A stretch of DNA of 55,976 nt from Bacteroidia bacterium. GTDB taxonomy: Bacteria > Bacteroidota > Bacteroidia > M30B66. Of this stretch, positions 766 through 25,845 are shown in pieces. The notes beneath the pieces were generated by a model. The model worked only from the letters and a program-made list of their open reading frames with translations, searched no databases and was not told the origin of the DNA. Every line of letters starts with the position of its first letter. The first letter of the stretch is position 1. The stretch lies in NCBI GenBank assembly GCA_018401705.1, contig JAGYKL010000022.1, positions 1 through 55,976 on the forward strand. The letters are read 5' to 3'. The position numbers and the translations under genes are program-made.

Positions 766-3700
766 TCATTCATGGTAAATCGGTGTTGTTGTAGGCGTTG
801 ACAAAATGGTAATTATAAAGTCAGTGCTAGATGCAGGATTACAACCTATAGCAGGCACAGTATAAGAAATAGTATATGTATTGGGTGTTGACGCTGATAC
901 ATCAATCTGACCTGAGTTCGCATCGATTACTAAACCTGCGGTTGATGAATATGAGCCTCCCGATGTAAAGCCAGAAACCGGATTAGGATTAATATCTGCG
1001 TCATCTTGGCAAGTTTCGGTAGGATAAGTAAATGTTGTAACAGGTGTAACTGCCGGTGTAACTGTAAGGCATGTTTCTGAGAAGCAATCGGCACCTAAAG
1101 TGAAATCAATTGGGTCTGGAGTTGCGGCTCCAAAATCAATGAAACCATCCCCATAATTACTTTCTCCATCAGCGGCAGGCGTTAGAAATTGGTTGCTAAT
1201 AAACGTTGCTGCAGGATTGCCTAATCCAGGATCATTCACCAACATGGCAAAAGTTGAAATTGTACCTGAAGGATTTCCAAGAAATGATAAAGGAACAGCG
1301 AACTCAAAGCCTTGATTGAAATTTCCTGAACCGCCATTGGCTTGATAACCAAGCAAATCTGAACTAATGATGTTGCCGGTTATATCTGAACCGAGGTAAT
1401 AGTTGATATTATTCTGCATATCGTATAAATCAAAAAATGCTTCACCATTTGCTTGATTCATACACAGGATAAAGTCCGGATTAAAGCCCGAATCAAATGT
1501 GATTAAGCCATTAAGATTCTCCACCGAAACGTATGGAGCATTAGATCTTGCACTCCAAGCGCCTAGATTATTAAAGCCTCCCGGCTGACAGTCGATAAAG
1601 AGCAAAAATCTATTATTACTGTTATTTTCAGTTTGTCCAGCTAAAGCTCCAAAAAGGTATTCACCTCCATTTTGAAGGTAAAGAGCATCAAGATTATTGT
1701 TTGCTCCAAAACCACTAACCAAATTAGGATTGCTCATAGATAACGCAGTTGACCACTCGTTTTCTATGATATTTCCGTCAAATGTAAATGGAGGAGGAGG
1801 AAATGAGCGAACGCAGAATACATCCCCCGATGAGGGGTTATTATAATTGAAAGTGCTGGAACTACTAGGTAGGCCTTGTGAAACCCCGTTAATAAAAAAC
1901 TCAAACAAACTTCCGTTTGAAACGCTCATTACCGTTGAAACACCTTCACAAACAGGGTTTGGAGAGATTAATGGACTTGCAGGGATTGCAGTTATTACTA
2001 CATAAGTTTCGGCTGTTGAACCAGGACAAGTGCCTGCAGGAGGGACTGAATATGTGATTAAATAAGTTCCGGGTGATGCAGAAGAAGGAGTAAAAGTTCC
2101 TGTTGAACCATTCACAGTAAGACCGGCCGGAGTAACCGAAAACGTTCCACCGGCAGCGCCTGAAATTTGCGGAGATTGCAGGTTTGTATTATCAATGCAA
2201 AAAGGACTTCCAGGGTAAATAATGTTAGCCTCAGTAGATTGACTCTGAGTAACCTCAATGGTTGCTGTAGCATCCAAACAAGGAGGAGTTCCGGAAATTG
2301 TATACGTGTATAACCCAGGAGTGGATGTTCCTGGAGTGAAAGTACCCAAATCTCCATTTCCCAGAATAGATGGTCCGGTCCAGGCACCACCTGATTGCGG
2401 AGAATCTGTTAGCCGACTAAATAAATCAACAGGCGCAGCACCGTCGCACACAGATAGATTTGCACTTGTTCCCGCGTTAGGCTGAACATTAATATTTAAT
2501 GTATATGTGCTAATGATTGTATAAGTATCCCCTATTCCAACAGCTCCGTTTCCGTTAACATCGCAATAAGCATAAGCAGACACGATTTGTGTAATTGCTC
2601 CTGAAGTTGGATTAATTCCATCAGGGAATACATTATCTGGTGATGTAACAGCGGCAACAGGAGTAACTGAAGAAAAAACAGCACATGAATTAGCGGCATT
2701 TACAGCGTCAATCCAGCTCTGAAGAGAAAATGACGAACCTGAACAAATGGTTTCTTCAACATTAGCAATAATAGCTGGCTCACAACATAAGAAACTGGCT
2801 TGTGTTGGATAGAGGCAGGTAGCTGGAGTTGGAGCAAATTCACTGTAGGAAACACTCAAAGAAGCATTAAAGTTAGCATTCCAAACCCCATCAGCTAATG
2901 AACCACAGTTTGCCAATGGGTCAAATTCGCTATTTACTCCAGCTACATTAAATGCATTTGGATAAATGTAAATTTCAATATTAGAGGCCGAAGTAAAACC
3001 TCCAGGAATGTTATTAAGAGCGATGTTTATTGAATATGTTGTTGATCCTGCAGGTGGATTAATATCAGATATAACATTGCCATCAACAATTATTGTTACC
3101 CAAAAATCGTCCAAAGAAAAACCAGGAGGGTTGAAGCAATAATTACTCATATCAAATTGCAAATCCAAAGAGGTGGCATTTCCACCAATATTATTGGCGG
3201 GAATTTGTAAGTACGCTGAATTATTTATCCCCCCAAATGGGCTACTTGCAACCTGAAAATCATTTGAAACATATGTTTGATTTTGCTCAATTGGAATAAG
3301 TGTTCCTCCAGTTGTGCAACACCCTGGCCCTCCACTCAATCCATTGTATGTTATATCAAAATCCTGAGAACCTGATATGCAACTAGGGTTAGAAACGCTA
3401 GATGGGTCAGGTGAAATAGAAAATACCGTTCCGATGTCGGCTTGATCACAATCGTTATTCGGACTAACATCCCACTGACAAGTGGTGGAATTAAAATCGA
3501 TAATCACAACATCATTTGATGCTGAAGGCAAACTAGGATATACTGTAACGTTATTTGAACCCGAAGAAATCACACTTCCATTGGTATTGCATGTGATTTC
3601 CCATGGAAGATTAAGAGAAATTGTGTTACAGTAATTTGTGTTATTAATGCTTATTGGGACTCTAAAATCTCTACAAAACTCAACCGTTTGGACTACTGGC

Positions 3701-5346
3701 CCAGCGGGTGTTGAAATAGTTATAGTAGCAGGAGAAATGCTAACGTTGGCAGCGAAAATTGCAGAAGTAAAATTGAAGAAATTCCCAGAGATAGCATTGG
3801 TTAAAGGAGTTGATCCTTGAAAAACCTGAACATAACCATTTACGCCATTAAAGCCATCGCCAAAAGAGTCATAAACCTCAAGAATAAAAATAGTACCCTG
3901 TACTGCTGGGTCTATTTGACCAACATCTACAGAAAAAGGGTTACCCGTTATGAAAACATTACCACCTGCAACTTGCTGATTGGTTAACTGAGAGCGGATG
4001 ATCCAATCTATCTCTTCGGGAAAACTACTTCCATAGTCTCCCTGAATAGTCATAAATATTGCCCCGTTGCAACTTGTATTCTCTACTTCCAGATAATAGG
4101 TTTGATTTGAACAGGCTACAGAAGGACTGTTTGAAGTATTTGCATACTGCGGGCAGTTTAATGAAAGCGAAGCGCAAGAGGCGGGAGCTGTATAGGTTTG
4201 AGTTAATGAACAATTAGCATCACTAGAAAAAGAAGCCGTTACAGTGCAATTTGCTCCATTAGCATTGAGACCCGAGAGCGTATAGCTAATTTGATTGGGG
4301 AAAGGGGCGCTAAATGTTGTGGTTGCTCCGCAGGATGAAGAAATAGTCAAAATTCCATCTGCAGGAGGATTGTCAATTGTTACATCTCCACTTACAGTAT
4401 AATTGTTTGTAGTTGCATCACATATGCTTGGAACAGCCGTTAGAGAAACGATATTGCATAGTATACCACAGTTTGTAGATGCTGTTGAATTTGAGGCACT
4501 GTTAAAAGTGATAAAGCCCGGAAAATTCTCGAAATTAGTGAGTAGTAGAATATAAAATTCTCCAGCTTGAGCATTGATTATGCTAGCTTGTTCGAAAGCT
4601 GAACCTGAGAAACTACAATCTACATTTGGAGCTGTAGAATTTGCTATTTGCAGACATCCATCTTCGGGCGAAATAAAGGGTCCCCAAAGATTAAAATCAA
4701 CGTCAATTGGAAAACCGAAAATATCGAATTGCTCGATATCTATGTTTAAATCGCCAGGCGTTTCGATTTGCATGTAATACCAAACCGGATTCGGAGAAGT
4801 AAGCAAACAATTGATTGTGCCTAAGCCAGATTGATTAATATTGTTTGGAAATGTATAAGTTGAACTTGTGCAAAACGGCAGAGCTTCAGGACAAGTATCT
4901 CCAGTATTTGAAGGAGGAGGAGGAGTTCCACATGAGATTGTTGCTTGCCAGCCCCTTCGGCGAGTTATTCCATCAGAAAAAAATTGAAAAGTTAGACAGC
5001 CGCCAATTGTGGAGGCTATGACTCCGGGACTTAAATTGCCTGTGTAACTGCCAATTAATGGAGAAGCTGTTGATGGTCCGTTGTAAATATCAAGAAAATC
5101 AAATCCGCCCTCTAATCGAAAGTCTGTAAACGTAAAAATAACGGCCTCTCCAGCTGGTGCACAGAATGTTACTGTGAGTAATTGATTGTTTGAATATTGG
5201 GCGTTTGGACCGCCATCATCATAAAAAAATCCGCTGCAAGCGTCATTGATAGTTCCTAAATTACCCATATTATACACCTGCGAGAAGCTTTGCGAGAAAG
5301 CCCCAAGAAGGAATATAATAATGTATATGAGTAACTTCGATCTCAT
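766..5346 (-). CDS. Large secreted CUB-domain surface protein (1526 aa)
   Basis: A signal peptide (MRSKLLIYIIIFLLGAFSQS) is followed by a CUB domain at about residues 33-140, shown by VTFCAPAGE, FDFLDIYNG and CLTFQFFSDG. Then comes a block beginning DTCPEALPFCTS that is common in large Cytophaga/Flavobacteria surface proteins, then Ig-like/PKD-like repeats. Residues about 1185-1420 form a separate region (NIIENEWSTA ... FLLFIDCQPGG) that resembles a DOMON/CBM9-like beta-sandwich. Likely role: an exported adhesion or substrate-binding protein. It probably forms a unit with the 121-aa secreted protein that ends 3 bp upstream. Odd point: it ends abruptly at TPTTTPIYHE with no recognisable T9SS sorting domain or gliding-associated C-terminal domain, so the 3' end may be truncated. 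No catalytic motif is seen. Confidence 0.75.
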   Translation of the reverse strand: MRSKLLIYIIIFLLGAFSQSFSQVYNMGNLGTINDACSGFFYDDGGPNAQYSNNQLLTVTFCAPAGEAVIFTFTDFRLEGGFDFLDIYNGPSTASPLIGSYTGNLSPGVIASTIGGCLTFQFFSDGITRRRGWQATISCGTPPPPSNTGDTCPEALPFCTSSTYTFPNNINQSGLGTINCLLTSPNPVWYYMQIETPGDLNIDIEQFDIFGFPIDVDFNLWGPFISPEDGCLQIANSTAPNVDCSFSGSAFEQASIINAQAGEFYILLLTNFENFPGFITFNSASNSTASTNCGILCNIVSLTAVPSICDATTNNYTVSGDVTIDNPPADGILTISSSCGATTTFSAPFPNQISYTLSGLNANGANCTVTASFSSDANCSLTQTYTAPASCASLSLNCPQYANTSNSPSVACSNQTYYLEVENTSCNGAIFMTIQGDYGSSFPEEIDWIIRSQLTNQQVAGGNVFITGNPFSVDVGQIDPAVQGTIFILEVYDSFGDGFNGVNGYVQVFQGSTPLTNAISGNFFNFTSAIFAANVSISPATITISTPAGPVVQTVEFCRDFRVPISINNTNYCNTISLNLPWEITCNTNGSVISSGSNNVTVYPSLPSASNDVVIIDFNSTTCQWDVSPNNDCDQADIGTVFSISPDPSSVSNPSCISGSQDFDITYNGLSGGPGCCTTGGTLIPIEQNQTYVSNDFQVASSPFGGINNSAYLQIPANNIGGNATSLDLQFDMSNYCFNPPGFSLDDFWVTIIVDGNVISDINPPAGSTTYSINIALNNIPGGFTSASNIEIYIYPNAFNVAGVNSEFDPLANCGSLADGVWNANFNASLSVSYSEFAPTPATCLYPTQASFLCCEPAIIANVEETICSGSSFSLQSWIDAVNAANSCAVFSSVTPVAAVTSPDNVFPDGINPTSGAITQIVSAYAYCDVNGNGAVGIGDTYTIISTYTLNINVQPNAGTSANLSVCDGAAPVDLFSRLTDSPQSGGAWTGPSILGNGDLGTFTPGTSTPGLYTYTISGTPPCLDATATIEVTQSQSTEANIIYPGSPFCIDNTNLQSPQISGAAGGTFSVTPAGLTVNGSTGTFTPSSASPGTYLITYSVPPAGTCPGSTAETYVVITAIPASPLISPNPVCEGVSTVMSVSNGSLFEFFINGVSQGLPSSSSTFNYNNPSSGDVFCVRSFPPPPFTFDGNIIENEWSTALSMSNPNLVSGFGANNNLDALYLQNGGEYLFGALAGQTENNSNNRFLLFIDCQPGGFNNLGAWSARSNAPYVSVENLNGLITFDSGFNPDFILCMNQANGEAFFDLYDMQNNINYYLGSDITGNIISSDLLGYQANGGSGNFNQGFEFAVPLSFLGNPSGTISTFAMLVNDPGLGNPAATFISNQFLTPAADGESNYGDGFIDFGAATPDPIDFTLGADCFSETCLTVTPAVTPVTTFTYPTETCQDDADINPNPVSGFTSGGSYSSTAGLVIDANSGQIDVSASTPNTYTISYTVPAIGCNPASSTDFIITILSTPTTTPIYHE

Positions 5347-7575: not shown

Positions 7576-7604
7576 TTGCAAGCTTACCACAGCTCGCATC
7601 TTTG
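7576..7604 (+). promoter_or_regulatory. Candidate Bacteroidota-type promoter for the nine-module protein
   Basis: A TTG at 7576-7578 lies 18 bp upstream of CATCTTTG (7597-7604), one mismatch from the phylum -7 box TAnnTTTG. The start codon at 7630 would then have a short leader of about 20 nt. Its position between the -7 box and the signal-peptide ATG supports the choice of 7630 over the in-frame ATG at 7576, which falls inside the promoter. Confidence 0.45.
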
Positions 7605-7629
7605 CCTCGTTAAAAATCTACCAGATCAC

Positions 7630-10600
7630 ATGAAGAAAATCTACCAAACTCATGTGCTCGTTCTTTCTTTGCTGTTTTATGTTCTCACGAGCGGAAATCT
7701 CTTTGCGATTTCTTATACGTGGAACGGCTCAGTATCAGAAGAATGGAGCAATTCGTCAAACTGGAGTCCCGCAGGGGTGCCGGACATCAGTGACGATGTT
7801 ATTATTGACGCTACAGGCAGTTTCGACCCATTATGGGAAGAATTGCCTGGAGTGAGAAATTTCACCTTAAATGGTGGAACATTTGACCTTGAAGGTTTCT
7901 TTATGCCAATTTATGGCACATGCAACTTCAATGGTGGAACCATTACAAATGGGACTCTAGTTTTGACTGGCAGCAACATAATTTTTGCCGGTACAGAATT
8001 CTTTTGCAACATAAATGCAAGTGGTCCAACCATAGAATTTGATGGTTCAGAATTTCATGGCAATGTTTCGGCTACCAAAGTTGGTGGCTCAAACGTTAGC
8101 AGTATTGGAGGCAATACCTTTCACGGGGATGTTACAATAACTAACGAAGACAATAGTCAATATCGCTTTCAGGCTTCATTTCCTGATATTTTTGAAGGGA
8201 ATGTCATTCTTAACAACACAAGTTCTGGAGGGATTTTCCTAGCCCACTCTTCTCTTAACACCCAATTCTTAGGAGATTTAGAGTTAAATTCATCTGGTTC
8301 TGGAGGAATCAGATTTGGGCAAAGCGGTGGAACCTGCACAATTTCAATAGATTCAGAAATGAGCATTGGAGGCAGCGGTTTCAGCAATGGACAATTAAGG
8401 TTTGCAGGTGTTACTCAATTGGGAAATTCCACAGCCAATCTTATTGGTAGCAGTGGAGCTCAAATTTATTTTGAGCCGTTATCAACATTTAATTCTCGTT
8501 TAAATATTGATTTTCCAAGATTCTACTTTAATGGTTCTACATTTAATGATAGTGTTAGAGTTGTTAATACTATCAACCAATCATCTACAAGTAATGGTGG
8601 AAACACATTTAATGGTGTTTTTACATTAATTAAAGAATCAAATGGTTGGTTAAGAATGGGCGATGTCGATCCTGACATCTTTAATAATGATGTTTACCTT
8701 CAAGACATGAGTGGAAACTCAGGGATTGAAATAGCAAGATCATCTGCCGGCAATGAGTTTAATGGCAATATTTATCTAAGCGGAGCCAATTCGGGAGCAA
8801 TTAATATTTGCTCTAATGGTGGAACCGCAACTCTCTCCTCGGGAAACACTATTGCTCTATGGGATGTTGGTTTTAACGGAGGCTCAATAAACATAGCTAA
8901 CTTAACTCAGCTTGGAACCGGTTTAATTAATTTTGTTCAAGCCACAGGTAATGGATTACTAATTCTAAATCCTGGATGTGAATTCAATGCAGAGATAGAT
9001 ATTTCATTTCCAAGCTTTTCACTTAACGGAGCTACGTTTAATGGTGATGCTAGATTTGTAAAAACAGTTTCCAGCACTAGATATAGTAATGGAGGTAATA
9101 TTTTCAATGGAAATCTAACTATTGAAAATCAAGAGAATGGCTCTATATACATGGCCAACATAAATCCTGATGTGTATAATAATCAAGTAGTATTAATTAA
9201 TAATGCCAATGGATACATTTACATGTCACACAATACTGGTTTGAGTATATATAATGATGCTGTATTTGTAAATTCAACAGGCACCTCGAGAGGAATATAT
9301 TTTGGAAATGGCGGAGGAAGCTCTTTGTTTAATTCAGGAAGCTCAATACAAATTGGTAGTGATGGTTTTACTACAGGAGAATTAAGACTAGCGCAAGTAG
9401 ATTATGATGATACTGAGCTTCTTCAATTAAGTGCACTTTCAGGAAACGGCCTAATTACAATAAATTCTTCAACGTTTGAGTCTGATATTAATTTCGTTTT
9501 TCCTCAACTTAATATCATATCTAGTGTCTTTAATGGAAGATTTACTGGCACTAAGACAAGTACAGGAAATAATACCTGGTCAGGAGGAAACACCTTTAAC
9601 GCACCTATTGCATTTACAGTTGAGAGTGCTCAGGTAATTTTAGGTAGCAGCATTGATATATTTAATGACTCTACAACCTTTATAAGTTCAGGTTCTGGCA
9701 GAATATATTTAGCTCATAATGCCGAAGGAACAGAATTTAATGGAGAACTACTACTTAGTGCTGAGGGTCCTTCATCATTAATTGCTTTTGGATATGGAGG
9801 TGGAACTGCAAGCCTTTCTTCAGGAAATAAAATTGCTTTCCCTAGCTCATCTATATGCAATGGCTCAATTAGATTTAGAAATCTTACACAATTAGGAAGC
9901 GGTCAAATAAATCTTTTAAGTGAAAGCAATACTTCATCTTTTTACTTCGAAACAGGCACAATTTTCAATGCCCCTTTAAATATTTCAGCAGGCGGTATTT
10001 ATTTGAATGGGTCTACATTTAATTCGGAAGTTACCATGTTGAATAATAACACGAATGTTACTTCAACTGGAGGAAACATCTTCAACAGTGATTTCGCTTT
10101 CACAAATAACTCAGCTGGCAGCTATACAATGGCGGGAACTAATCCTGACACCTATTTGGCTGATGTTACCTTAATTTCTGACGGGAACAACGCAAGAATT
10201 AATATAGCAAATGCTTCTGCAGGGAATCTAATTACTGGTGATATTTATTTGAATAGTATTAACGGTGCTGCTGGAATCAGAATATGTGATAATACCAGCG
10301 GAAATGTAACACTTCAATCAGGGTCTAGTCTCAAGATTGGTTCCGATGGTTTTGATTCAGGTGACTTATATATTTCAAGGTTAATTCAATTAGGAAATGC
10401 TTCAAATGATTTAGAGATGACTGGTTCCAGCAGAATTTATTTCCAAGCTGGTAATGACTTCGGTGGACCTGTTACAGCTGACGCTTCTCAAATAGCATTA
10501 AATGGAAGTACATTCCAAAATGTTTCTTCGTTTACTCAAACTGGCACATCTAATAATACTTGCTCTGGTGGCAACACATTTAATGATACAGCTTATCTTA

Positions 10601-13512
10601 TCGACTCAGGCGCTGGTGGTATTTGGACTCTGGCCAATGTTTCTGCCGATGTTTTCAATGCTCCTTTATATGTTTCCTCTTTAAACGGAGGTAGAATACG
10701 ACTGGCATATAATACACACGGAAATCAGTTTAAGAATTTGTTTCTTTCAAGTAAAAACGGTGCGGGAGGAATTGATATCTGCAGCGCAAGTACTAACTCA
10801 TCAGCTTCTATTGATGGAGGTCTTTTTTCTACAGCAGTTGATTTCAATTCTGGCGACTTAAACATTTATTCTTTAACACAAACTGGCAGTACTGAAAGCA
10901 CCCTTTTAACATCAGGTACGGCAAGAGCTTTAATTCAGCAAGGAAATACTTTCACTGGCAAAATAACAATACAAGCTGAAACAATTTCTTTTAGAAACTC
11001 TATTTTCAACGATGTATGTCGATTTACTCAAACAGGCTTTAGCAATACCACTTGTTATGGAGGAAACACCTTTGCTGATTCAACTTATATTATTGACTCA
11101 AGCACTGGTGGGAATTGGTATATCGGAAATAATCAATCTGATGATTTCCAAGGGCCACTCTCGGTTTCTACTAGCAATGGCGGAAATATATATTTAGCTC
11201 ACAATTCACCAGGAAATAGTTTTACTGATTTAATATTATCCTGCACAGCAGGTGGACAAGGCATTAGAATTTGTCAAGGTACTCTTGGAAGTGCAAGTTT
11301 TGATGGTGAAATAAAAATAGGTGCTGCAGGATTTTCTTCGGGGGACCTAGAAATTAGAAACTTAACTCAAACATCTGCTAACGACATTGAACTTCTATTA
11401 CCTCATGTTGATGGAAACATATATTTTGAAACGGGCACAACTTTTCTTGGAAATCTAACCGCTTCCGCGGGAAGGGTTTACCTTAACGGAACAACTTTTG
11501 GCAATGCTACTATTGAGCAAACTGGAAGTTTAAACATTACTTGTTTAGGAGGTAATACCTTTAATGGAAACTGCGACTTCACTCTTTCAGGATCTGGATA
11601 TTGGCTTTTCGGAAACTCCAACCCTGACATATTTAATGGAGATGTTACTGTGCATAATATAGGTAGTTCTATTTTCTATTTAGGTCATAGAGCAGCAGGA
11701 ACTGTTTTTAATGGAGATTTAATTCTTAACTCTACAGGAACTGCCACAGGAATTTACTTTGGCCAAAATAATGGCACCTCAACACTAAACAGTGGCGGCA
11801 AGCTAAAATTCGGATCTGAAGGATTCACTTCTGGAACATTTAGAATTAGAAATTTTGTTCAAAGTGGAGCTGATTCTGTTTTATTAAACTCTAATGTAGC
11901 TAACCTTAATGCATACTTTGAAACAGGAAATGAATTCAGAGGCTATACATCCATAAAATTCGCAAATCTATATTTGAATGGATCAAGCTATTATGGCAAA
12001 ACTTTAATTGAAAGAACCGGAACTGCAACCTTAGCTTGTAATGGTGGTAACTGGTTTTATGATGATGCAACTTTGCATTTGAGTGGAAGTGGACAATGGA
12101 GATTAGCAAATAGCTCAAGCGATTATTATTACTCTGATGTTACTTTCCTCCAAGATAATCCTAACACTCTTTACCCTGCTTATAATAGAACGGTACAATT
12201 AAGAGGTAATTACTCAAGCCTAGGCAGTGCTTATCCGATAACTACATCAGCAAATAATAATGCCGGATGGATTCAATTTGCAGGAAGCGATGACCAGGAG
12301 ATCATTTCCAATCCGTCTGAGACAGTTTCGATTGTAAACCTAAGTTTGAATAAAACAGGCGGAACTTTAAGCTTGAATGAAAATACGGTCATTACCAGAA
12401 ACCTCACTTTAACTTCTGGTGTTATTCAATCCTCTGCTTCTGCTTTATTAATTCTAAATGATAATGCGGTTTCATCTGGAGGTTCTTCTGCAGCATATGT
12501 AAGCGGCCCACTTAGAAAAATTGGTAATGATGCATTCACCTTTCCTACAGGAAAAGGTGGAATTTACAGACCTATCTCCATTTCTGCTCCTTCTAATACT
12601 ACTCATCATTTTACGGCTGAGTTATTCCTAGGAAGTGCCGATGGAACATACTCTCATAGCTCAAAAGATGCTTCTATTGAAACTCTTAGTCAATGTGAGT
12701 ATTGGATTCTAGATCGTACGAACGGAACTTCAAATGTGCAAGTTGGACTAAGCTATAATGGTATTTCTTGTTTGGTAACTAACCAAGCCACTCTTATTGT
12801 TTCAAGATGGAATGGTTCATCATGGACCAACCACGGAAACGGAGGAACTTCAGGTTCGGCTGCTTCAGGAACTATAGTAAGCTCTGGTGCTATAACTAGC
12901 TTTAGTCCCTTCACTTTAGGCTCTACATCGCCTGAAAACCCTTTGCCTGTTGAATTAATTACTTTTAATGCAAAGGCTAAAGAAGATGTTGTTGACATTA
13001 ATTGGTCAACTGCATCTGAAACAAACAATCATTATTTCGAAGTTGAGAAAAGTAAAGACTTAATCAATTTCGTATCTGTTGGGAAAGTAACAGGTAAAGG
13101 AAACACTACTCAAACATCTGATTATTCATTGACTGACGAAATGCCATATGAAGGCACTTCATACTACAGATTAGTGCAATATGACTTCAATGGAGATTCA
13201 GAGACATTTGACCCTGTTGCCGTTAATTTTGAAAACAAAGCAGAATTGGGAATCCAACTTTGGCCTAATCCTGCAAAAGACATAATAAACATTCAACTAA
13301 GCAACTTCAAAGATGAATTGATAAACCTAACTGTAATTGATGAAATGGGCAGAATCATTGAGACATTATCTCCCGAGTTTAATGATGCCTCAATTAGTCA
13401 AATTCAACTAAACAATTATAAAAGTTGGAAAAGTTTATACACAATGGTTTACAGTAAATCTCATCAAGCGAAAAAGCAAGCTTATAAAAACATTAAAAAA
13501 AATAATCGGTGA
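7630..13512 (+). CDS. Giant secreted solenoid protein with nine ~164-aa tandem modules, T9SS-sorted
   Basis: From the ATG at 7630 the protein has a signal peptide (MKKIYQTHVLVLSLLFYVL ...) and an opening WNG...W...NW motif. It then has nine tandem modules, each marked by a G-G-N-x-F core (DNA starts 8107, 8596, 9091, 9593, 10069, 10567, 11059, 11548, 12043), giving a period of 476-502 bp. Each module repeats phrases such as IFNGDV, IYLAHN, GxFNGDL, GSDGF and LTQLG, typical of a right-handed beta-helix or beta-solenoid. After the array come an FN3-like region (LPVELITFNAKAKED, WSTASETNNHYFEVEKS) and a T9SS type A sorting domain (LGIQLWPNPAKDIINI). The reading frame slips by one base near 13,425: the other frame reads SGKVYTQWFTVN and then KRKSKLIKTLKK, the expected domain end. 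The last about 28 residues of the annotated frame are therefore wrong. Likely a cell-surface adhesin or fibre. Confidence 0.85.
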   Translation: MKKIYQTHVLVLSLLFYVLTSGNLFAISYTWNGSVSEEWSNSSNWSPAGVPDISDDVIIDATGSFDPLWEELPGVRNFTLNGGTFDLEGFFMPIYGTCNFNGGTITNGTLVLTGSNIIFAGTEFFCNINASGPTIEFDGSEFHGNVSATKVGGSNVSSIGGNTFHGDVTITNEDNSQYRFQASFPDIFEGNVILNNTSSGGIFLAHSSLNTQFLGDLELNSSGSGGIRFGQSGGTCTISIDSEMSIGGSGFSNGQLRFAGVTQLGNSTANLIGSSGAQIYFEPLSTFNSRLNIDFPRFYFNGSTFNDSVRVVNTINQSSTSNGGNTFNGVFTLIKESNGWLRMGDVDPDIFNNDVYLQDMSGNSGIEIARSSAGNEFNGNIYLSGANSGAINICSNGGTATLSSGNTIALWDVGFNGGSINIANLTQLGTGLINFVQATGNGLLILNPGCEFNAEIDISFPSFSLNGATFNGDARFVKTVSSTRYSNGGNIFNGNLTIENQENGSIYMANINPDVYNNQVVLINNANGYIYMSHNTGLSIYNDAVFVNSTGTSRGIYFGNGGGSSLFNSGSSIQIGSDGFTTGELRLAQVDYDDTELLQLSALSGNGLITINSSTFESDINFVFPQLNIISSVFNGRFTGTKTSTGNNTWSGGNTFNAPIAFTVESAQVILGSSIDIFNDSTTFISSGSGRIYLAHNAEGTEFNGELLLSAEGPSSLIAFGYGGGTASLSSGNKIAFPSSSICNGSIRFRNLTQLGSGQINLLSESNTSSFYFETGTIFNAPLNISAGGIYLNGSTFNSEVTMLNNNTNVTSTGGNIFNSDFAFTNNSAGSYTMAGTNPDTYLADVTLISDGNNARINIANASAGNLITGDIYLNSINGAAGIRICDNTSGNVTLQSGSSLKIGSDGFDSGDLYISRLIQLGNASNDLEMTGSSRIYFQAGNDFGGPVTADASQIALNGSTFQNVSSFTQTGTSNNTCSGGNTFNDTAYLIDSGAGGIWTLANVSADVFNAPLYVSSLNGGRIRLAYNTHGNQFKNLFLSSKNGAGGIDICSASTNSSASIDGGLFSTAVDFNSGDLNIYSLTQTGSTESTLLTSGTARALIQQGNTFTGKITIQAETISFRNSIFNDVCRFTQTGFSNTTCYGGNTFADSTYIIDSSTGGNWYIGNNQSDDFQGPLSVSTSNGGNIYLAHNSPGNSFTDLILSCTAGGQGIRICQGTLGSASFDGEIKIGAAGFSSGDLEIRNLTQTSANDIELLLPHVDGNIYFETGTTFLGNLTASAGRVYLNGTTFGNATIEQTGSLNITCLGGNTFNGNCDFTLSGSGYWLFGNSNPDIFNGDVTVHNIGSSIFYLGHRAAGTVFNGDLILNSTGTATGIYFGQNNGTSTLNSGGKLKFGSEGFTSGTFRIRNFVQSGADSVLLNSNVANLNAYFETGNEFRGYTSIKFANLYLNGSSYYGKTLIERTGTATLACNGGNWFYDDATLHLSGSGQWRLANSSSDYYYSDVTFLQDNPNTLYPAYNRTVQLRGNYSSLGSAYPITTSANNNAGWIQFAGSDDQEIISNPSETVSIVNLSLNKTGGTLSLNENTVITRNLTLTSGVIQSSASALLILNDNAVSSGGSSAAYVSGPLRKIGNDAFTFPTGKGGIYRPISISAPSNTTHHFTAELFLGSADGTYSHSSKDASIETLSQCEYWILDRTNGTSNVQVGLSYNGISCLVTNQATLIVSRWNGSSWTNHGNGGTSGSAASGTIVSSGAITSFSPFTLGSTSPENPLPVELITFNAKAKEDVVDINWSTASETNNHYFEVEKSKDLINFVSVGKVTGKGNTTQTSDYSLTDEMPYEGTSYYRLVQYDFNGDSETFDPVAVNFENKAELGIQLWPNPAKDIINIQLSNFKDELINLTVIDEMGRIIETLSPEFNDASISQIQLNNYKSWKSLYTMVYSKSHQAKKQAYKNIKKNNR

Positions 13513-13514
13513 TG

Positions 13515-13549
13515 AACCTCTGTTCCTGTAATCCGGCAGGGGGTTTTTT
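13515..13549 (+). terminator. Rho-independent terminator after the nine-module protein
   Basis: Arms AACCTCTG (13515-13522) and CAGGGGGTT (13537-13545) pair imperfectly and run into a six-T tract (13544-13549). The arms look as though they contain an indel, as does the neighbouring coding end, so the original stem may be longer. Confidence 0.55.
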
Positions 13550-13608
13550 GTTAAAAAGTGGCATAAAATAATTATGCACCCTTTTATTTACAAATACTTA
13601 TTGAAATG

Positions 13609-14325
13609 TTAACATGTTGTATTTACAGACTCATTTATTAAGTAAATTTGTTTACCTCACAACCTGGAGTCAATATGATAGGCAGGAGCTATCTGATATA
13701 TCCGCTACCAGCTCCTAAACCGCCCATTTCAGTTGCAAATCCACAGACCACCATTCCCGCAACAGTTTTTAACACTGAACGCTTTGGAGAAATCACAGAG
13801 AAAAATATCAAATCGGCACTTAAGATTTGTGTGATGAACTTAAGGTAAAAAAGCTGCATTCTGAATTGTTGTCGCCCACAGCCTTAGGACCAGAAGGCAT
13901 TTCATTGTTTGACTAGCTGTAAAACTTGAGAAGCCACTACCGCCGGTTACATTCCAGCCATTAGCCCACTTAAATCAGTCCTGTTACACAGTCTGAGAAG
14001 AGAAGGGTGTAAGTCTGCTTTGAGCAGTAAATGCACTTCCATTTAGAGAAACCGTTCCCAGACCACATAAGTTCCAGCAACAAGATCTCCAAATACAGTT
14101 GCACCCAAGCCACTGGTTGGTAAATTTCTCCAACAATGGGAGCTGTTACATAATTGGCCGTGTGAACTGCAATTAAAAGTGCTATCCGCGCCAGTAGGCG
14201 TAGACCTATTTAGAGGCAGAGGCAGTAGGTACTATTGGATCCTCTTCTTCTTCGTCCTTTTTACAAGAACTTAAAACCATACTTGATGCTAATAGCATCA
14301 TAAAAATTTTCCTTGCATTAATCAT
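13609..14325 (-). pseudogene. Frame-broken lipoprotein gene
   Basis: The 5' end is clear: MINARKIFMMLLASSMVLSS followed by C, a lipoprotein signal with lipobox LSSC, then an acidic linker KKDEEEEDPIVP. The open frame ends at 14206. Beyond it the protein continues only by changing frame: GTVSLNGSAFTAQSRLTPFS, WANGWNVTGGSGFSSFTASQ, MPSGPKAVGDN, and finally KTVAG, ATEMGGLGAGSGYI and KQIYLINES. A stop fits at 13609-13611. Together these outline a secreted beta-sandwich lipoprotein of about 235 aa, of a kind common in Bacteroidota. The start at 14325 is chosen because the signal peptide begins there. Either the gene is decayed or the consensus here has several indels. The latter is favoured because conserved blocks survive between the shifts. 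Confidence 0.55.
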
Positions 14326-14606
14326 AATTAGGTTTAATTTGGTTAGCAAAGTCAAATTAAATAAATCCAGTAAATCCTTAGATTTCCGCCTCCAAAAGAT
14401 TGTTAACATTCAATTGTGATGAAAAATTTCAAAATCGCCTCCTATTTACATCCATTCTAAATAGAGCTGCTTTCTTTGATTAACTATAACTTTAGCATTC
14501 TCTTGAGCTTGCTCTACTAGGCTTTAATTTCAAGCTTTTCGAACAATTCAAACAAAACAATCAAACAGTATGTTGGTGAAATAGAACTCTAAACAGATTT
14601 TACATA
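14326..14606. other. Divergent intergenic region upstream of sdhCAB
   Basis: Roughly 280 bp of AT-rich sequence lies between the lipoprotein start (minus) and the sdh promoter (plus). An in-frame upstream ATG at 14409 would extend the lipoprotein ahead of its signal peptide and is not credible. No other gene or repeat is seen. Confidence 0.5.
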
Positions 14607-14637
14607 TTGCGGAGTACATCTATGCTCCCTACATTTG
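14607..14637 (+). promoter_or_regulatory. sdhCAB promoter (TTG-N20-TACATTTG)
   Basis: TTG (14607-14609), a 20-bp spacer and TACATTTG (14630-14637) match the Bacteroidota sigma factor consensus TTG-N19-21-TAnnTTTG exactly. The sdhC start codon is at 14664, leaving a leader of about 20 nt. It is the best promoter match in the window. Confidence 0.7.
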
Positions 14638-14663
14638 CAGACCTCTCATAAAAATTTAACTCT

Positions 14664-17307: not shown

Positions 17308-17670
17308 ATGAAAGTCACACTAAAAGTTTGGCGTCAGAAAAACAAAGACTCTAAAGGTGAGTTCAAGTCTTATGCGATGGATGATGTCTCAGAAGACATG
17401 TCTTTCCTTGAAGTATTTGATGTTCTTAATGAAGAGCTCGTTAGAAAAGGAGAAGAGGAACCAATCGCTTTTGACCATGATTGTCGTGAAGGAATTTGCG
17501 GAATGTGTTCAATGTACATCAACGGACGCGCGCATGGACCCAATACCGGAACAACGACCTGCCAGCTTCATATGCGCAGTTTTAAAGACGGTGATACTAT
17601 CATGGTTGAACCATGGAGAGCTAGTGCATTTCCTTTAATTAAAGATTTGATATTGATCGCTCAGTTTTAG
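17308..17670 (+). CDS. sdhB: Succinate dehydrogenase iron-sulfur subunit, N-terminal part (frame broken)
   Basis: Residues 1-115 are a normal SdhB N-terminal ferredoxin domain. They carry the [2Fe-2S] cysteine cluster CREGICGMC and a later TTTCQLHM. At about 17,645 the frame slips: the annotated frame reads LILIAQF and stops at 17670, whereas the other frame reads DIDRSVFDRVIRQG, which is the normal continuation. A complete SdhB is about 245 aa, so half the protein, including the ligands for the [4Fe-4S] and [3Fe-4S] centres, lies in the broken tail. The subunit carries electrons from FAD to the heme b subunit. Third gene of sdhCAB. Confidence 0.9.
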
Positions 17671-18032
17671 ACAGAGTTATTCGGCAGGGAGTGTTTCGTT
17701 TCGTTACCTACTGAATGCTGTTGACGCAAACTCAGTTCCGATTCCCAAAGGACGCAGACAAAGCTTTCGATGCAAGCAGCTTTGCATTGGTTGTGAGCTT
17801 GTGTGGCCACCCAAAACGCTTCAAGATGTTGTTTGTTTCGCCAAGGTTTCTCAATTGGCTTTGCTTCCGTAAGGTCACTGAACGTCATCGCAGGGTAAAA
17901 AGTATGGTAGAAGCAATGAAGGTTTCTGCAACTGCACAAATACCGGAGCCTGCGAAGTTGAATGTCCGAAAGGAATTAGCCCAGAAAATATAGCAAGAAT
18001 GGTGATTTTCTGTAGCAAATATTGTAGATTGA
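17645..18032 (+). pseudogene. sdhB: Remaining C-terminal half of sdhB, scattered over three frames
   Basis: Family blocks appear in the right order but in changing frames: NAVDANSVPIPK (17714-17749), DADKAFDASS (from 17751), a CIGC(G)ACVAT cluster segment recoverable by restoring one G, KVSQLALLP, VTERHRRVKSMVEAM, NCTNTGACEVECPKG and ISPENIARM, with a likely stop near 18030-18032. Most breaks can be repaired by restoring single bases, and the Fe-S cysteines survive. This is what uncorrected base deletions in the consensus look like rather than an old pseudogene. If real, the organism would lack a functional complex II. Confidence 0.8.
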
Positions 18033-19641: not shown

Positions 19642-22600
19642 CTACGTTGACGACCTAATTGTGCGTATTGTATGTTGAATTCCTGATAACTCGCAATTGT
19701 TTACCGACAAATCATTCAGAATCACATCAGTTAAGACAGATGGCACCTTTCCATCATCCCAATTAAGACAGTTATTCCAATCAGAGTCAACACTTCCTAC
19801 CCATAAACCGGGAGTTCCGCCAAAACCAATATTCGCAATTGACAGTATATCGCTTTCAACTGAACAATTATTTTCATCCGATACAGTTACTGTATAGTCT
19901 TGAGACGCAGATAAGGGACTAGCTGTTGTAATTTGATTTGTTGCATCATCTAAACCAATATCTGGAAGCCATTGGTAAATTAGGTTGCCTGTTCCTCCTG
20001 TAGCGGAAGCACTTATGGTAGCGGCAGAACCATTGCAAATTGATTGGCTTCCAGTTACCGTAACCGAAGGTAGTGGGTGAACTTCAACCATTACATTCTC
20101 TACTTTTGCACAACCATCATAGGTTGTTGTGTAAATATATGTGGTAATTGCTGTTGCAGCGCCTGTATTTTCAAGAATTTCAGAAGGATTGTCCGTCTGA
20201 GGATCGAGAATCTCTCCATTATCAATCCCAGGTGCAGCAGGTCTTACCCAAGTGAATGTAGCTCCACTTAAATTTGCCTCTGGTTCATAAATAAACTCTG
20301 ATCCACTGCAAATAGCTGGTGGTAAAAGTGTAGTAATTAATTCGCCAACTGGCTTAACTGAAATAGGTATTGGAGAATTTAAAACGCTACATCCATAAGT
20401 GTTTGAAGTATTTACAATATAAAATGCATCAGATTCAGGACTGAGAACCGGATTCTGCTCTGAGGAATTGTAAGACATTGGATCTGAAGTCCATGCGAAA
20501 TCATAGTTGGTTGTATTTCCTGAAATGGTAACATTATCAATTGCCCAGTACCTTGCTCTGCCTTGAGCGAAATAGTTAAATCTAATATAGAGATTTGGAT
20601 AACCAACGTAAGCTGAAATATCAATTGTTACATTTTGAAAATTGGTGCTACTTCCTTGCGTGCTGGTATATGATTGCAATGTTGACCACGTTCCTCCATC
20701 AGTAGAAACCTCAACCCTTGCATTTTCGCCTGGTCTATTTTCGAACCTGAAGTAATGCCAAAAGTCAAGTTGTAGCGATGAATAACCAACAGTACTCAAT
20801 GAAGGTGATGTTAATGCAGTTAATGTGGCTGTTCCATTCTGATTTCTGCTATGACTAATATAACATTGCGAATTATCGTTAGACCTAAATTGAACATCAC
20901 TATTGTAATTGTAAGGGCGAAGTGTCCAGTTTGCATTACTAACACTACCGCCTATTGAATTATTTATTCTATTCCAATTATTTATACTTCCGTTAAAATT
21001 CTCAGAAAGTAAAACTGACAAATAAGATGATCCTGAAGCAAACAATTGAGCACTTTCACCAAGACAAATTTCTGATGTTGAACTTGAAGCATTAATTGAT
21101 CCTTCAAAAGTATATGGATTAATGGTTATGTAAGCAGTGTCGCTCACTGCAGCGCAACCACCTGAAGCTGCCAATGAATTGACAACCGCATAATTACCAG
21201 GAATACTTGCAGATATATTAATTGCACCTGTACTTGAATTTAATGAAAGTAAGTTAGAAGAACGTGTGAAGGTTCCACCAACTCCCCCATCTAAAAACGT
21301 TGGTAAAATAGGTGCAGTATTAATTGACTGACAAAGACTATTGCTACCATATTGAAAAGAGGCTACCGGACTTGGGGGAATTGTAATGACCCTCGTAAAA
21401 ATAGCAGGACTGCATGCACCCTGAGGAGTAATTGTATTTGAAATAAGATATGTTCCAGGGACGCTATTTTCTAAGTCAACTTCACCTGATGAAGAACTGG
21501 CGAAAACAAGTTCAGAACTTGAAAAGTCTGTAAGTGAAAGATCATCAATATTGATTCTTTTAACAGACGTCGATGTTGCACCCGAAGCATGAACAATTCT
21601 AATTCTCACATTTCCTGAAACATTGATAGCCGTATAAAATGTTTTTACAACATTGCTTGCAATAAAATTGCTTCCAGCTTGTGTCCAAGAGCCACCTCCA
21701 TTTGTAGAATATTCGACTTTCCAAGTTACTTGAGCATCAGTGCTAAACCTTTGGTAATTAAATGAGATTATACCAATACCATTAGCCTTATCTGCATTCA
21801 TACTTGCAGAAGAAGTTGTTGCGCCTTGCAATCGCAAGGATCTGGAACCAAATTTCCAATCTGTTCCACCTGTTCCAATAAGTGCAGAAGTTAGATTCCA
21901 CTGAATTCCACTCAAATTAACGTTCCCTGAAGCATAGGCTGTTTTAGTTTCTCCAACACCTTCAAAGTTTACCAAATAGGAAACTTCTCTTGAGCTAAAA
22001 ACACCTGCATTTCCTGAAATTAAAGGAGATGGGTTACTTGATGAACTGCAAAAAGGAGAGCCGATAAAATCGAAATCTGCATTAGGGTTTGATGATATTA
22101 CAACTTCAACAGGCTCAATATCTGAGCATCCAGATACCGAACTTTGTATATAATATGTACCGCTGTTTACAGCTACAGGATTAGAAATAGCATTTGTGGC
22201 AGACAAATCATGCCAATAAGTAAATGCTCCTGTATGCAAACTTCCAGAAGTAACAGAAGGTTGAGTTAAATCAACTAATCCCGAGCAAGCAGCTTGATTT
22301 GTAATTTGAAGTTGAGGTGTTTGTGTAACGCTAATCGTTACATTATTTGAAAGCTGCCTAGAACAACCACTTGCTGCTCTGGTTGCAGTTACAAAAAAAG
22401 TGGTTGTTGACTCCAGATCACCCGTTTCTATTGAGATACTTGCTCCATTTCCATTAACAGCAGAACCCACAATATCTCCGCTAACTGATTCAACAAGTTG
22501 GTAAAACACACCGGATTCAGAATTAGCCACATTAATCTGAGTTGAGGTTCCTGAGCATATCACAGAGCTGACCGATGAAGTAAGCTTATCATCAGGTACA

Positions 22601-25600
22601 GTATTGATAACGACCGGAACACTAGATATATAGCTACAGCCTAATGCATCTGTTATGGTAAGATTGTAAATCCCTGCATGTGAACTTGTTGCACTAGCTG
22701 CAACTGTAGGGTTAGCTACAATAGAGGTAAAACCATTTGGCCCTTGCCAAGAGTAATTGAAAGGACTTGCTCCTCCAATTGCATTAGCATTTAAGAACAA
22801 AGGAGATCCTTCACAAACAGGAATGTTTCCGTTAACAACCGGAGTAGCCTCTAAGGCAATAGGTGCTAACGTAGAAAATGAAATATCGTCTAAAGCAAAA
22901 TCATTCCCCCCTAAAATTGTATTTAAATTTACAATTGATAAATCAGCACTGGATAATGGACCGGAATTCCATAAGCCATAAAATCTGACCCAATTGTAAG
23001 GGCCATTTGAGTTTGTATATCCATTTGGTAAATAAGCTATTGTTCCAACCTGATTGCCGTTTATTGCAAATTGAAGCACTGCATTATTTCCATTAACGAC
23101 ACTCATACCCCATGCTGAAAAATAATAAGTTGTATTGGGCTGTATAGTTATGTTATTCTGACTCCAAACTGTGGCTCCAAGTGCGGGACTGCCATTGATC
23201 ACCATAATATTCCCAGACCCATTGTTTCTTTCTCTACCTCTAAAGGCAGTATGCACATTGTTAGCATTTGGCACAATCGCGTATGTACCTTCAGGATATA
23301 ACTCTGTATTTCCACCAACATCTGCACGATAAGAATAACCGGTTACAAAGCCTGTATTTCCTAAAGAAAAGGTTCCATTTGTTACCAATTCGGTAGCAAT
23401 GTCAATTGAGGCACCTGCAGAACAACCTGTGGCATTTCCGAGTGTTACTGAATATGTTCCAGCTTGATCTACCTCAATATAACTGGTAGTTTCACCTGTA
23501 TTCCATAAATATGACGCAGCAGATGATGAAGTTAAGCCGATATTACCATTTGGAAGGCAGTATGTTGGGGTTATTGTTGCTGCAGGAGCAGGATCTACAG
23601 TAACAGCAATTGTTCTCGGAGCACTTGTTCCACAATAATTTGTAGCTGTTACGCTCAAATTTCCTGATGTTGCAGAGTTTGAGTAATCAACAGTAACTGA
23701 ATTACCGCTACCATTAATAGTTGCTCCAGAGCCGGAATAGTTCCAATTATAAGTTACACCTTCCGAAAATGGAACCGTGTAAACTACTGCTGCATCGCCG
23801 CGACAAATAGAAACATCAGAATTCAAAAAAGCTAGAGGCTGAACTGGAACAGAATTAATCTCAATGGTCGATACTTTGTTATAATCAGAAATAACAAGGT
23901 CTTCAATATTCATTCTCCTGTCGGTTGAGGTATTACCTCCTGCCGCATGTCTTATTCTGATTTGAATGTTGCCTGATACATTTACTTGTTCACTGAAATA
24001 TTGAATATTATTATTTGAAGGAGCAATAAAATTCGACCCTATTTGTGTCCAACTTGCTCCGTTATTTTGTGTGTACTCTACCAGCCATTCTACTTGTGAA
24101 TCGGTTCCGAACCTTCTGTATTTAAAAGAGATTTGACCAATTCCATTTGGTTTATTCTCAAGCATTCTGGCTTGACCGTTACTTCTTCCTCTAAACCTTA
24201 AGGATCTTGCGCCAACTCGATAATCTGAGCCTGAATTCCCTGTCATAACTTGATCAAGGTTCCATAAAATTCCTCCAAAATAAGTGTTCCCGTTATTATA
24301 GGTATTCTTAGCCTCACCTGTTCCCTCACAATCTACTGTGTATGATTGAGAATTACTTTGTGCCAAACCAGTAGCATTAGATACTGATATAGTTCCTGAA
24401 CTAGCTGCTGCAGGCACTGTGGCTGTAATTTGAGTGTTGCTTATTTGAGTAAAAGCTGCAACTTGCCCATTGAATTTGACTGTTGTTGTTCCATCAAAAT
24501 TCAACCCATTTAATGTAACAAGATCGCCAACACATGCTTGTGCCGGAGAAAAATTTGAAATGTAAGCTTTAGGAACTACAGTTCCAAAAAAGAAGAAATT
24601 ATCTATACTTAACTCTCCTGTTGAATTACCAGAACCATATCCATATATTCTGAAAGTTATCGAACTTCCTACATTTTGAAATAATGTTGAGGCTAGGTTA
24701 ATGTTTCCTCCTGTAGTGCTTGGATTAGGACCTAAGTCGCTCGAATAATTGTTTATGCTACTTCTTACTCTTATACTACTTGGCCCAATAGATGAGCGAG
24801 TTGCAGAAAAAAGAAAATTGCTGAAATTGATTTTATATCCAGGGTTTGGTGTTATAGTGAACTCGAAATAATCATTTGCAGAAATGGAATTATTTATGTT
24901 ATTATTTGTAACAAAGCCTCTTGCATTAAATCTATCATTATCTAAAACAGGTATAAGTCCTGAAGCATAGCTTATTCCAGACACAGTAACTTTTGGATCA
25001 ACAACTTGTCCACTAGTAAATGGATTTGAGCTACTAGGATTAACACCTGTAACAGGGCTGCTCCAAATTGTGGGGCTTACTAAAACTAAACCATTTGCTC
25101 CACGCCCTCCAGTCTTAGTTGATCCTGGGGTTCTTCTAGCACCGCCGCCGCCGCCGCCATAATTAAAACCATTTTGACCGTTTCCATTACCTGTTCTTCG
25201 GTTTGCGCCACGTCCGCTATTCGGCCCATTGCCATTACCTCCTCCATTGTTTGTGCCGCTAAATCCATTGCCGTTTAAGCCAGCTGCTCCGCCTCCTCCA
25301 GCTCCATTACCTGCTGACTGTCCTCCTTGTCCTCCTGAAAACTTTAAGAATCCCAGTGAAGCGGAGGCCAAGCCGCCATTTCCTCCTGTAAGTGAATTAT
25401 CATTTGGGCCTTCACCACCTGCAGCTAAGACTATTGCCGGCGAGCCAAAAGAGCTTGGTTGACCATTCTGAACACTTAAGTTCCCTCCCAATCCAACGTT
25501 AACAGGAATTATACTGCCTGGCGTTACGGTAAAAGTGCTACATGCAAATGCACCGCCGCCGCCACTGCCACCGCCGCCATTAGTAGATCTTGTAGTTCCC

Positions 25601-25845
25601 TTACCCCCAGAACCCCAGCATTGTACAGTTAGAGTTTGAACATTAGATGGCACTGTATAATTTCCACTATTTGTAAAGGTCTGACTTGTTTGCGCAAGTG
25701 CTTCGGTTGTTAATGCAACTACATTAATAATAATTAATATTAGTAAGACTGAAAGACTCTTTAAAAATGGAGTCTGAATAGTATTCTTACTTGCACTTTT
25801 ATTCCAAAGTAATTTTGGGATCATATTTCGGTGATTTATTTTCAA
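19642..25845 (-). CDS. Giant mosaic secreted surface protein (2067 aa, C-terminus broken)
   Basis: The N-terminus carries a long signal peptide (LLILIIINVVALTTEALAQ). Domains in order: a glycine-rich domain of the Gly_rich_2 kind (residues about 55-260; TFTNSGNYTVP, then Gly runs), an IPT/TIG Ig-like domain (about 425-505; ISNFSPAQACVGDLVTLNG), and a first copy of a beta-sandwich module of about 150 aa (505-653). Then come PKD/Ig-like repeats, a region with TFSLGNTGFVTGYSYRAD-like carbohydrate-binding character, and a second copy of the same module (about 1291-1442). Further Ig-like repeats and a MAM/jelly-roll-like stretch (WNRINNSIGGS ... LQLDFWHYF) follow, and finally DWNNCLNWDDGKVP. It stops at 19642 without a sorting domain; the remainder appears in broken frames to about 18,060. 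Likely an exported adhesin or polymer-binding protein. No catalytic site was recognised. Confidence 0.8.
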   Translation of the reverse strand: MKINHRNMIPKLLWNKSASKNTIQTPFLKSLSVLLILIIINVVALTTEALAQTSQTFTNSGNYTVPSNVQTLTVQCWGSGGKGTTRSTNGGGGSGGGGAFACSTFTVTPGSIIPVNVGLGGNLSVQNGQPSSFGSPAIVLAAGGEGPNDNSLTGGNGGLASASLGFLKFSGGQGGQSAGNGAGGGGAAGLNGNGFSGTNNGGGNGNGPNSGRGANRRTGNGNGQNGFNYGGGGGGARRTPGSTKTGGRGANGLVLVSPTIWSSPVTGVNPSSSNPFTSGQVVDPKVTVSGISYASGLIPVLDNDRFNARGFVTNNNINNSISANDYFEFTITPNPGYKINFSNFLFSATRSSIGPSSIRVRSSINNYSSDLGPNPSTTGGNINLASTLFQNVGSSITFRIYGYGSGNSTGELSIDNFFFFGTVVPKAYISNFSPAQACVGDLVTLNGLNFDGTTTVKFNGQVAAFTQISNTQITATVPAAASSGTISVSNATGLAQSNSQSYTVDCEGTGEAKNTYNNGNTYFGGILWNLDQVMTGNSGSDYRVGARSLRFRGRSNGQARMLENKPNGIGQISFKYRRFGTDSQVEWLVEYTQNNGASWTQIGSNFIAPSNNNIQYFSEQVNVSGNIQIRIRHAAGGNTSTDRRMNIEDLVISDYNKVSTIEINSVPVQPLAFLNSDVSICRGDAAVVYTVPFSEGVTYNWNYSGSGATINGSGNSVTVDYSNSATSGNLSVTATNYCGTSAPRTIAVTVDPAPAATITPTYCLPNGNIGLTSSSAASYLWNTGETTSYIEVDQAGTYSVTLGNATGCSAGASIDIATELVTNGTFSLGNTGFVTGYSYRADVGGNTELYPEGTYAIVPNANNVHTAFRGRERNNGSGNIMVINGSPALGATVWSQNNITIQPNTTYYFSAWGMSVVNGNNAVLQFAINGNQVGTIAYLPNGYTNSNGPYNWVRFYGLWNSGPLSSADLSIVNLNTILGGNDFALDDISFSTLAPIALEATPVVNGNIPVCEGSPLFLNANAIGGASPFNYSWQGPNGFTSIVANPTVAASATSSHAGIYNLTITDALGCSYISSVPVVINTVPDDKLTSSVSSVICSGTSTQINVANSESGVFYQLVESVSGDIVGSAVNGNGASISIETGDLESTTTFFVTATRAASGCSRQLSNNVTISVTQTPQLQITNQAACSGLVDLTQPSVTSGSLHTGAFTYWHDLSATNAISNPVAVNSGTYYIQSSVSGCSDIEPVEVVISSNPNADFDFIGSPFCSSSSNPSPLISGNAGVFSSREVSYLVNFEGVGETKTAYASGNVNLSGIQWNLTSALIGTGGTDWKFGSRSLRLQGATTSSASMNADKANGIGIISFNYQRFSTDAQVTWKVEYSTNGGGSWTQAGSNFIASNVVKTFYTAINVSGNVRIRIVHASGATSTSVKRINIDDLSLTDFSSSELVFASSSSGEVDLENSVPGTYLISNTITPQGACSPAIFTRVITIPPSPVASFQYGSNSLCQSINTAPILPTFLDGGVGGTFTRSSNLLSLNSSTGAINISASIPGNYAVVNSLAASGGCAAVSDTAYITINPYTFEGSINASSSTSEICLGESAQLFASGSSYLSVLLSENFNGSINNWNRINNSIGGSVSNANWTLRPYNYNSDVQFRSNDNSQCYISHSRNQNGTATLTALTSPSLSTVGYSSLQLDFWHYFRFENRPGENARVEVSTDGGTWSTLQSYTSTQGSSTNFQNVTIDISAYVGYPNLYIRFNYFAQGRARYWAIDNVTISGNTTNYDFAWTSDPMSYNSSEQNPVLSPESDAFYIVNTSNTYGCSVLNSPIPISVKPVGELITTLLPPAICSGSEFIYEPEANLSGATFTWVRPAAPGIDNGEILDPQTDNPSEILENTGAATAITTYIYTTTYDGCAKVENVMVEVHPLPSVTVTGSQSICNGSAATISASATGGTGNLIYQWLPDIGLDDATNQITTASPLSASQDYTVTVSDENNCSVESDILSIANIGFGGTPGLWVGSVDSDWNNCLNWDDGKVPSVLTDVILNDLSVNNCELSGIQHTIRTIRSST

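Follow-up and report, generated by a model that had tools for sequence, protein, structure and literature searches.

The gene at positions 7630-13512 of the window, that is, of the whole 55,976-nucleotide stretch analysed here, probably encodes a secreted beta-solenoid stalk that is anchored at the cell surface. The features that compose it are the following:

7630-13512, + strand: whole gene, putatively T9SS-exported modular beta-solenoid protein of 1,960 aa (ORF and signal peptide)
7708-8106, + strand: N-terminal cap (SYTWNGSVSEEWSNSSNWSPAGVPD to DDVII), leading into a partial first solenoid unit (AlphaFold2 model; kept in relatives)
8107-8595, + strand: module 1, 163 aa (GGN-x-F spacing, alignment, profile)
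8596-9090, + strand: module 2, 165 aa (same evidence as module 1)
9091-9582, + strand: module 3, 164 aa (same evidence)
9583-10068, + strand: module 4, 162 aa (same evidence)
10069-10566, + strand: module 5, 166 aa (same evidence)
10567-11058, + strand: module 6, 164 aa (same evidence)
11059-11547, + strand: module 7, 163 aa (spacing, alignment, profile; AlphaFold2 together with module 8)
11548-12042, + strand: module 8, 165 aa (spacing, alignment, profile; AlphaFold2 together with module 7)
12043-12192, + strand: truncated module 9, reduced to approximately two initial turns (profile positions 1-49/50 only)
13258-13509, + strand: type A T9SS C-terminal sorting domain (PF18962; 24.8 / 32.1 bits)

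The reading frame (7576-13512, + strand) is open from a TTG codon at 7576; the likely natural start is the ATG at 7630, which precedes the signal peptide MKKIYQTHVLVLSLLFYVLTSGNLFA. A signal peptide of the same MKKIY type also opens the N-termini of the long orthologues. The protein is acidic, with a pI of 4.3, and its composition is rich in Asn, Gly, Ser and Thr.

The array is marked out by nine GGN-x-F sites, at 8107, 8596, 9091, 9583, 10069, 10567, 11059, 11548 and 12043, with spacings of 163, 165, 164, 162, 166, 164, 163 and 165 residues (486-498 bp). The initial annotation had recognized the regular period of ~492 bp and placed eight of the nine sites correctly; the remaining site, given there as 9593, lies at 9583, and the spacing is therefore tighter than the range of 476-502 bp reported at the time. 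Likewise, nine modules had been counted, of which eight are complete, with a further partial unit ahead of them next to the N-terminal cap; the unit starting at 12043 is matched by the module profile over its first 49-50 positions only, so that the array consists of eight full modules and a truncated one. In 300 composition-preserving shuffles of the protein, the GGN.F pattern occurred 0.23 times on average and at most twice. The best self-offset of the protein is 164 residues, where the mean BLOSUM62 score is -0.01, compared with -0.58 +/- 0.03 at the best offset of the shuffles, a difference of ~20 standard deviations. The high DNA divergence noted earlier is borne out by pairwise comparison of the full modules, which share 39-52% identity in DNA and 22-41% in amino acids; as expected from such divergence, Tandem Repeats Finder called no repeat in the array.

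Each module comprises seven unequal turns of about 24, 25, 26, 25, 25, 18 and 21-22 residues, bounded by conserved anchors at positions 5, 29, 54, 80, 105, 130 and 148; the turn boundaries were set manually, guided by the alignment and by the strand predictions. When turns are compared with each other, 1, 2, 3 and 7 are alike, while 4, 5 and 6 are each distinct. Because the turn types differ, the repeat is visible at 164 residues and only faint at 24-25. Eight residues are invariant in all eight modules (G1, G2, N3, F5, D27, I69, G96 and F130), and of these, G1, G2, F5 and D27 stay unchanged throughout 28 two-module rows drawn from the window and its relatives.

For a pair of adjacent modules (7 and 8), the prediction that the initial annotation had suggested, AlphaFold2 produced a model built entirely of strands, with no helix, a mean pLDDT of 96.2 and a pTM of 0.92, from an alignment of the 28 two-module rows (window and related-genome loci). 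A second model, which covers 7708-9150 (the cap, modules 1-2 and the start of module 3) and is based on an alignment of 8 related rows, reached a pLDDT of 92.2 and a pTM of 0.87. In both models, short strands recur every 18-26 residues and the structure continues from module to module; in the second, the N-terminal cap passes straight into the solenoid strands. The turns are thus predicted to coil and stack along one axis in the manner of a beta-solenoid. The earlier suggestions that the unit corresponds to several beta-helix turns and that the array forms a single very long solenoid agree with these predictions: the model and the alignment place seven turns in each unit, and the modelled chain is unbroken across the module junctions.

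Comparison with known folds yielded distant similarities. The best Foldseek match in the PDB has an E-value of 0.3, and TM-scores are at most 0.34, so neither the cross-section nor the handedness can be inferred from any homologue. These weak matches are mostly beta-solenoids (Ag43, TibA, EtpA, HMW1, Fap2, PL6 lyases and curli); polygalacturonases and one S-layer protein (RsaA) are also among them. In a fold search of viral models, the best match, an unnamed phage protein with a TM-score of 0.52, has a weak E-value and suggests no function. At the sequence level, searches of Pfam, NCBIfam and PDB sequences gave no family that matches the module, which eliminates a known repeat family as its identity in these collections, and a search of literature titles and abstracts returned no described T9SS solenoid repeat. 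The impression recorded earlier, that the unit belongs to no described family, has thus held up, and the profile search from the units that had been proposed along with it retrieved relatives in genomes. The module is a widespread, uncatalogued sequence family.

The surface attachment via the T9SS that was proposed in the initial annotation is supported by the C-terminus, which matches PF18962 with 24.8 bits in the context of the whole protein and with 32.1 bits as the tail alone, the cut-off being 27 bits. A frameshift hiding the sorting domain was considered: the alternative frame after LNNYK scores 30.8 bits compared to 32.1 bits as is, and hence no frameshift needs to be invoked at the C-terminus. 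The genome encodes SprA (SprA_N, PF14349, E 1e-168) and at least 150 further PF18962 tails; the four-module paralogue on contig C25 carries a T9SS tail as well. Pfam and NCBIfam scans revealed no C-terminal outer-membrane beta-barrel of the autotransporter type, and the Pfam scan revealed no N-terminal TPS domain. On these sequence grounds, the protein is presumably exported through the T9SS and anchored at the surface.

Relatives are concentrated in the order. A profile built from the eight modules matches nine of its ten genomes, the single genome without a match being 73% complete; among the 60 nearest genomes sampled, 17 contained hits, as did 4 in a phylum-wide sample of 395; outside the order the occurrence is patchy within the class. 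Those related records that carry names are metagenome-assembled genomes (MAGs) of Bacteroidota, and isolate names suggest an origin in lakes and ponds. The order holds two genes of the family: a short one (~1,310 residues, four full modules), which is present in all nine module-bearing genomes, and a long one (~1,790-1,960 residues, seven or eight full modules), which was not found in G004 (93% complete) and G005 (100% complete). A search with the four-module orthologues retrieved seven MAG contigs, all with four-module genes. The N-terminal cap is conserved in relatives, and in the distant genome G054 four loci (L054, L055, L056 and L057) encode the cap and modules followed by differing C-terminal parts; the module is thereby joined to varied C-termini in several genes, like a general-purpose stalk. 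Four more paralogues, with one to two modules each, are found in G000 (L014 on C34, L015 on C12, L016 on C9 and L017 on C18). These small paralogues share ~74-76% DNA identity with the C34 copy, their first module has ~30 extra residues, roughly one turn, and at least two of them (C12 and C18) are interrupted by stops or frame changes.

Orthologues with seven or eight full modules occupy syntenic positions: the window's gene and that of G006 have the same pair of small genes and the same succinate dehydrogenase genes as neighbours, and G008 agrees as far as its stretch reaches. The ~1.1 kb that separate the solenoid gene from the succinate dehydrogenase genes (13520-14660) contain no ORF of at least 150 aa and may harbour a decayed gene. 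The gene for the iron-sulphur subunit, sdhB (17308-17993, + strand), appears frameshifted: a 120-aa ORF containing Fer2_3 is followed, in a different frame, by what seems to be the C-terminal half. In G006 the frame stays open for at least 234 codons at this site, and the disruption reflects either indel errors in the contig or decay. Two further very large secreted proteins (PKD/Ig-like/reelin-type; CUB) are encoded at 19642-25845 and 766-5346, both on the - strand; neither ORF closes with a recognisable T9SS tail, and both are possibly cut by frameshifts.

The history of the arrays is reflected in a tree built from 98 modules. For the short gene, each of modules 1-4 falls together with its positional counterparts in all nine species; for the long gene, this pattern largely holds in G003, G006, G007 and G008, and G003 shows one recent tandem duplication. 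In the window's gene, modules 1, 2 and 4 group together, as do 5, 6 and 7; the modules of G019 and most of those of G022 cluster within their own protein, which indicates separate amplification in these lineages, as far as the tree can tell. Since modules at corresponding positions of the array fall together across species, the arrays are old, and judging from this clustering, the four-module arrays appear to predate the radiation of the family. Recent amplification can be dismissed as a general explanation in view of the 22-41% identity and the clustering by position across species. The earlier statement that the array was not recently amplified is thus valid for the four-module arrays and only partly so for the window's array with its two internal groups.

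Selection on a fixed total length, as the initial annotation had assumed, is not what the relatives suggest: their departures from 164 residues are mainly 21-30 residues, about one turn, and the fixed length therefore probably reflects whole turns. A requirement for complete turns would be the simplest constraint, and the near-constant length results most simply from the duplication of whole modules whose turns tolerate few insertions and deletions. Arrays would grow or shrink through duplication of entire modules and, more rarely, by one turn at a time.

The most likely role of the protein is that of a rigid surface stalk or adhesin, which could operate in the following manner: The signal peptide would direct the chain to the periplasm, from where the type A C-terminal domain, by analogy with known T9SS cargo, would lead it through the type IX translocon to anchoring at the outer membrane. 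Outside the cell, the N-terminal cap would begin one uninterrupted beta-solenoid with its turns arranged in heptads. The eight modules and the partial ends may add up to ~60 turns, which, at the usual beta-solenoid rise of 0.48 nm per turn, would give a rod of ~30 nm. The acidic rod most likely keeps the distal N-terminal cap off the cell, and its repeated lateral surface may be available for binding polysaccharide or neighbouring cells. Pfam and NCBIfam scans found no known adhesive domain in the protein; the solenoid itself could be the functional part, or it could polymerise.

A self-assembling filament or S-layer-like coat, in which monomers are joined end to end or side by side via the solenoid, would suit a long, uniform and acidic solenoid that is conserved throughout the order, and RsaA and a curli subunit are among the weak fold matches. 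However, the N-terminal cap and the C-terminal T9SS tail speak against open-ended stacking, and the G054 relatives with their unrelated C-termini are easier to reconcile with a stalk than with a subunit of a coat; we consider such assembly unlikely. The filament that had been envisaged initially gives way to a monomeric stalk of ~30 nm, with its cap and tail, as the more economical reading. It is quite unlikely, too, that each module carries one ligand or metal site, for example at the invariant GGN / D27 turns, at intervals of ~3.4 nm: the invariance of G1, G2, N3, F5 and D27 in the eight modules, which for G1, G2, F5 and D27 extends to the 28 two-module rows, and the recurrence of each face only once per seven turns, because the turn types differ within the module, are in line with such sites, but turn-forming or packing roles explain the same residues. 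A distinctly long shot is an undescribed architecture, in which a fixed heptad, made up of unequal turns of four kinds and duplicated as one block, would use GGN / D27 to present a ligand every ~3.4 nm on the 30 nm rod, the number of modules setting the binding valency. A carbohydrate-active enzyme with a pectate- or alginate-lyase-like beta-helix and an active site in each or one module, as the PL6 lyases and polygalacturonases among the weak fold matches might hint, is very improbable, given that no enzyme family in Pfam and no PDB sequence matched, that the module-invariant residues (G, G, N, F, D, I, G and F) look structural and that enzymes do not usually contain eight similar copies.

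The modules represent a deep, uncatalogued repeat family in old, position-conserved arrays, found throughout an order of uncultured freshwater Bacteroidota as well as in scattered relatives, and they merit a database family model of their own. The family is a well-behaved case of solenoid growth by whole seven-turn modules or single turns, and a confidently predicted rod whose length steps between orthologues offers a useful test of stalk length at the bacterial surface.

Among T9SS surface proteins, SprB, the gliding adhesin of Flavobacterium johnsoniae, is very large and repetitive; set beside it by description, the protein studied here has 1,960 aa and a type A tail (PF18962), and no link between the two was found. 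With T9SS type A cargo of Bacteroidota in general (Por_Secre_tail, PF18962), it shares the signal peptide, the large beta-rich extracellular part and the type A tail, whereas its repeat region belongs to no Pfam or NCBIfam family. The solenoid adhesins Ag43, TibA, EtpA, HMW1 and Fap2, which appeared as weak fold matches, likewise expose a long solenoid at the surface; in contrast to them, the protein gave no Pfam match to an autotransporter barrel or a TPS domain, shows no sequence similarity and a TM-score of at most 0.34, and combines presumable T9SS export with a heptad of unequal turns. Fibrillar adhesins are very large extracellular proteins with a stalk that projects a binding domain (PMC9210967); the protein studied here has a stalk-like solenoid, and the Pfam and NCBIfam scans returned no known adhesive domain to go with it. 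The Giant1-5 surface proteins of Apilactobacillus are very large and extracellular and possess a beta-solenoid part (PMC12863079). Both phylum and anchoring are unrelated to those of Giant1-5 and the fibrillar adhesins. The solenoid of Giant1-4 forms an N-terminal domain similar to a binding domain (PMC12863079), whereas here the solenoid makes up most of the protein.
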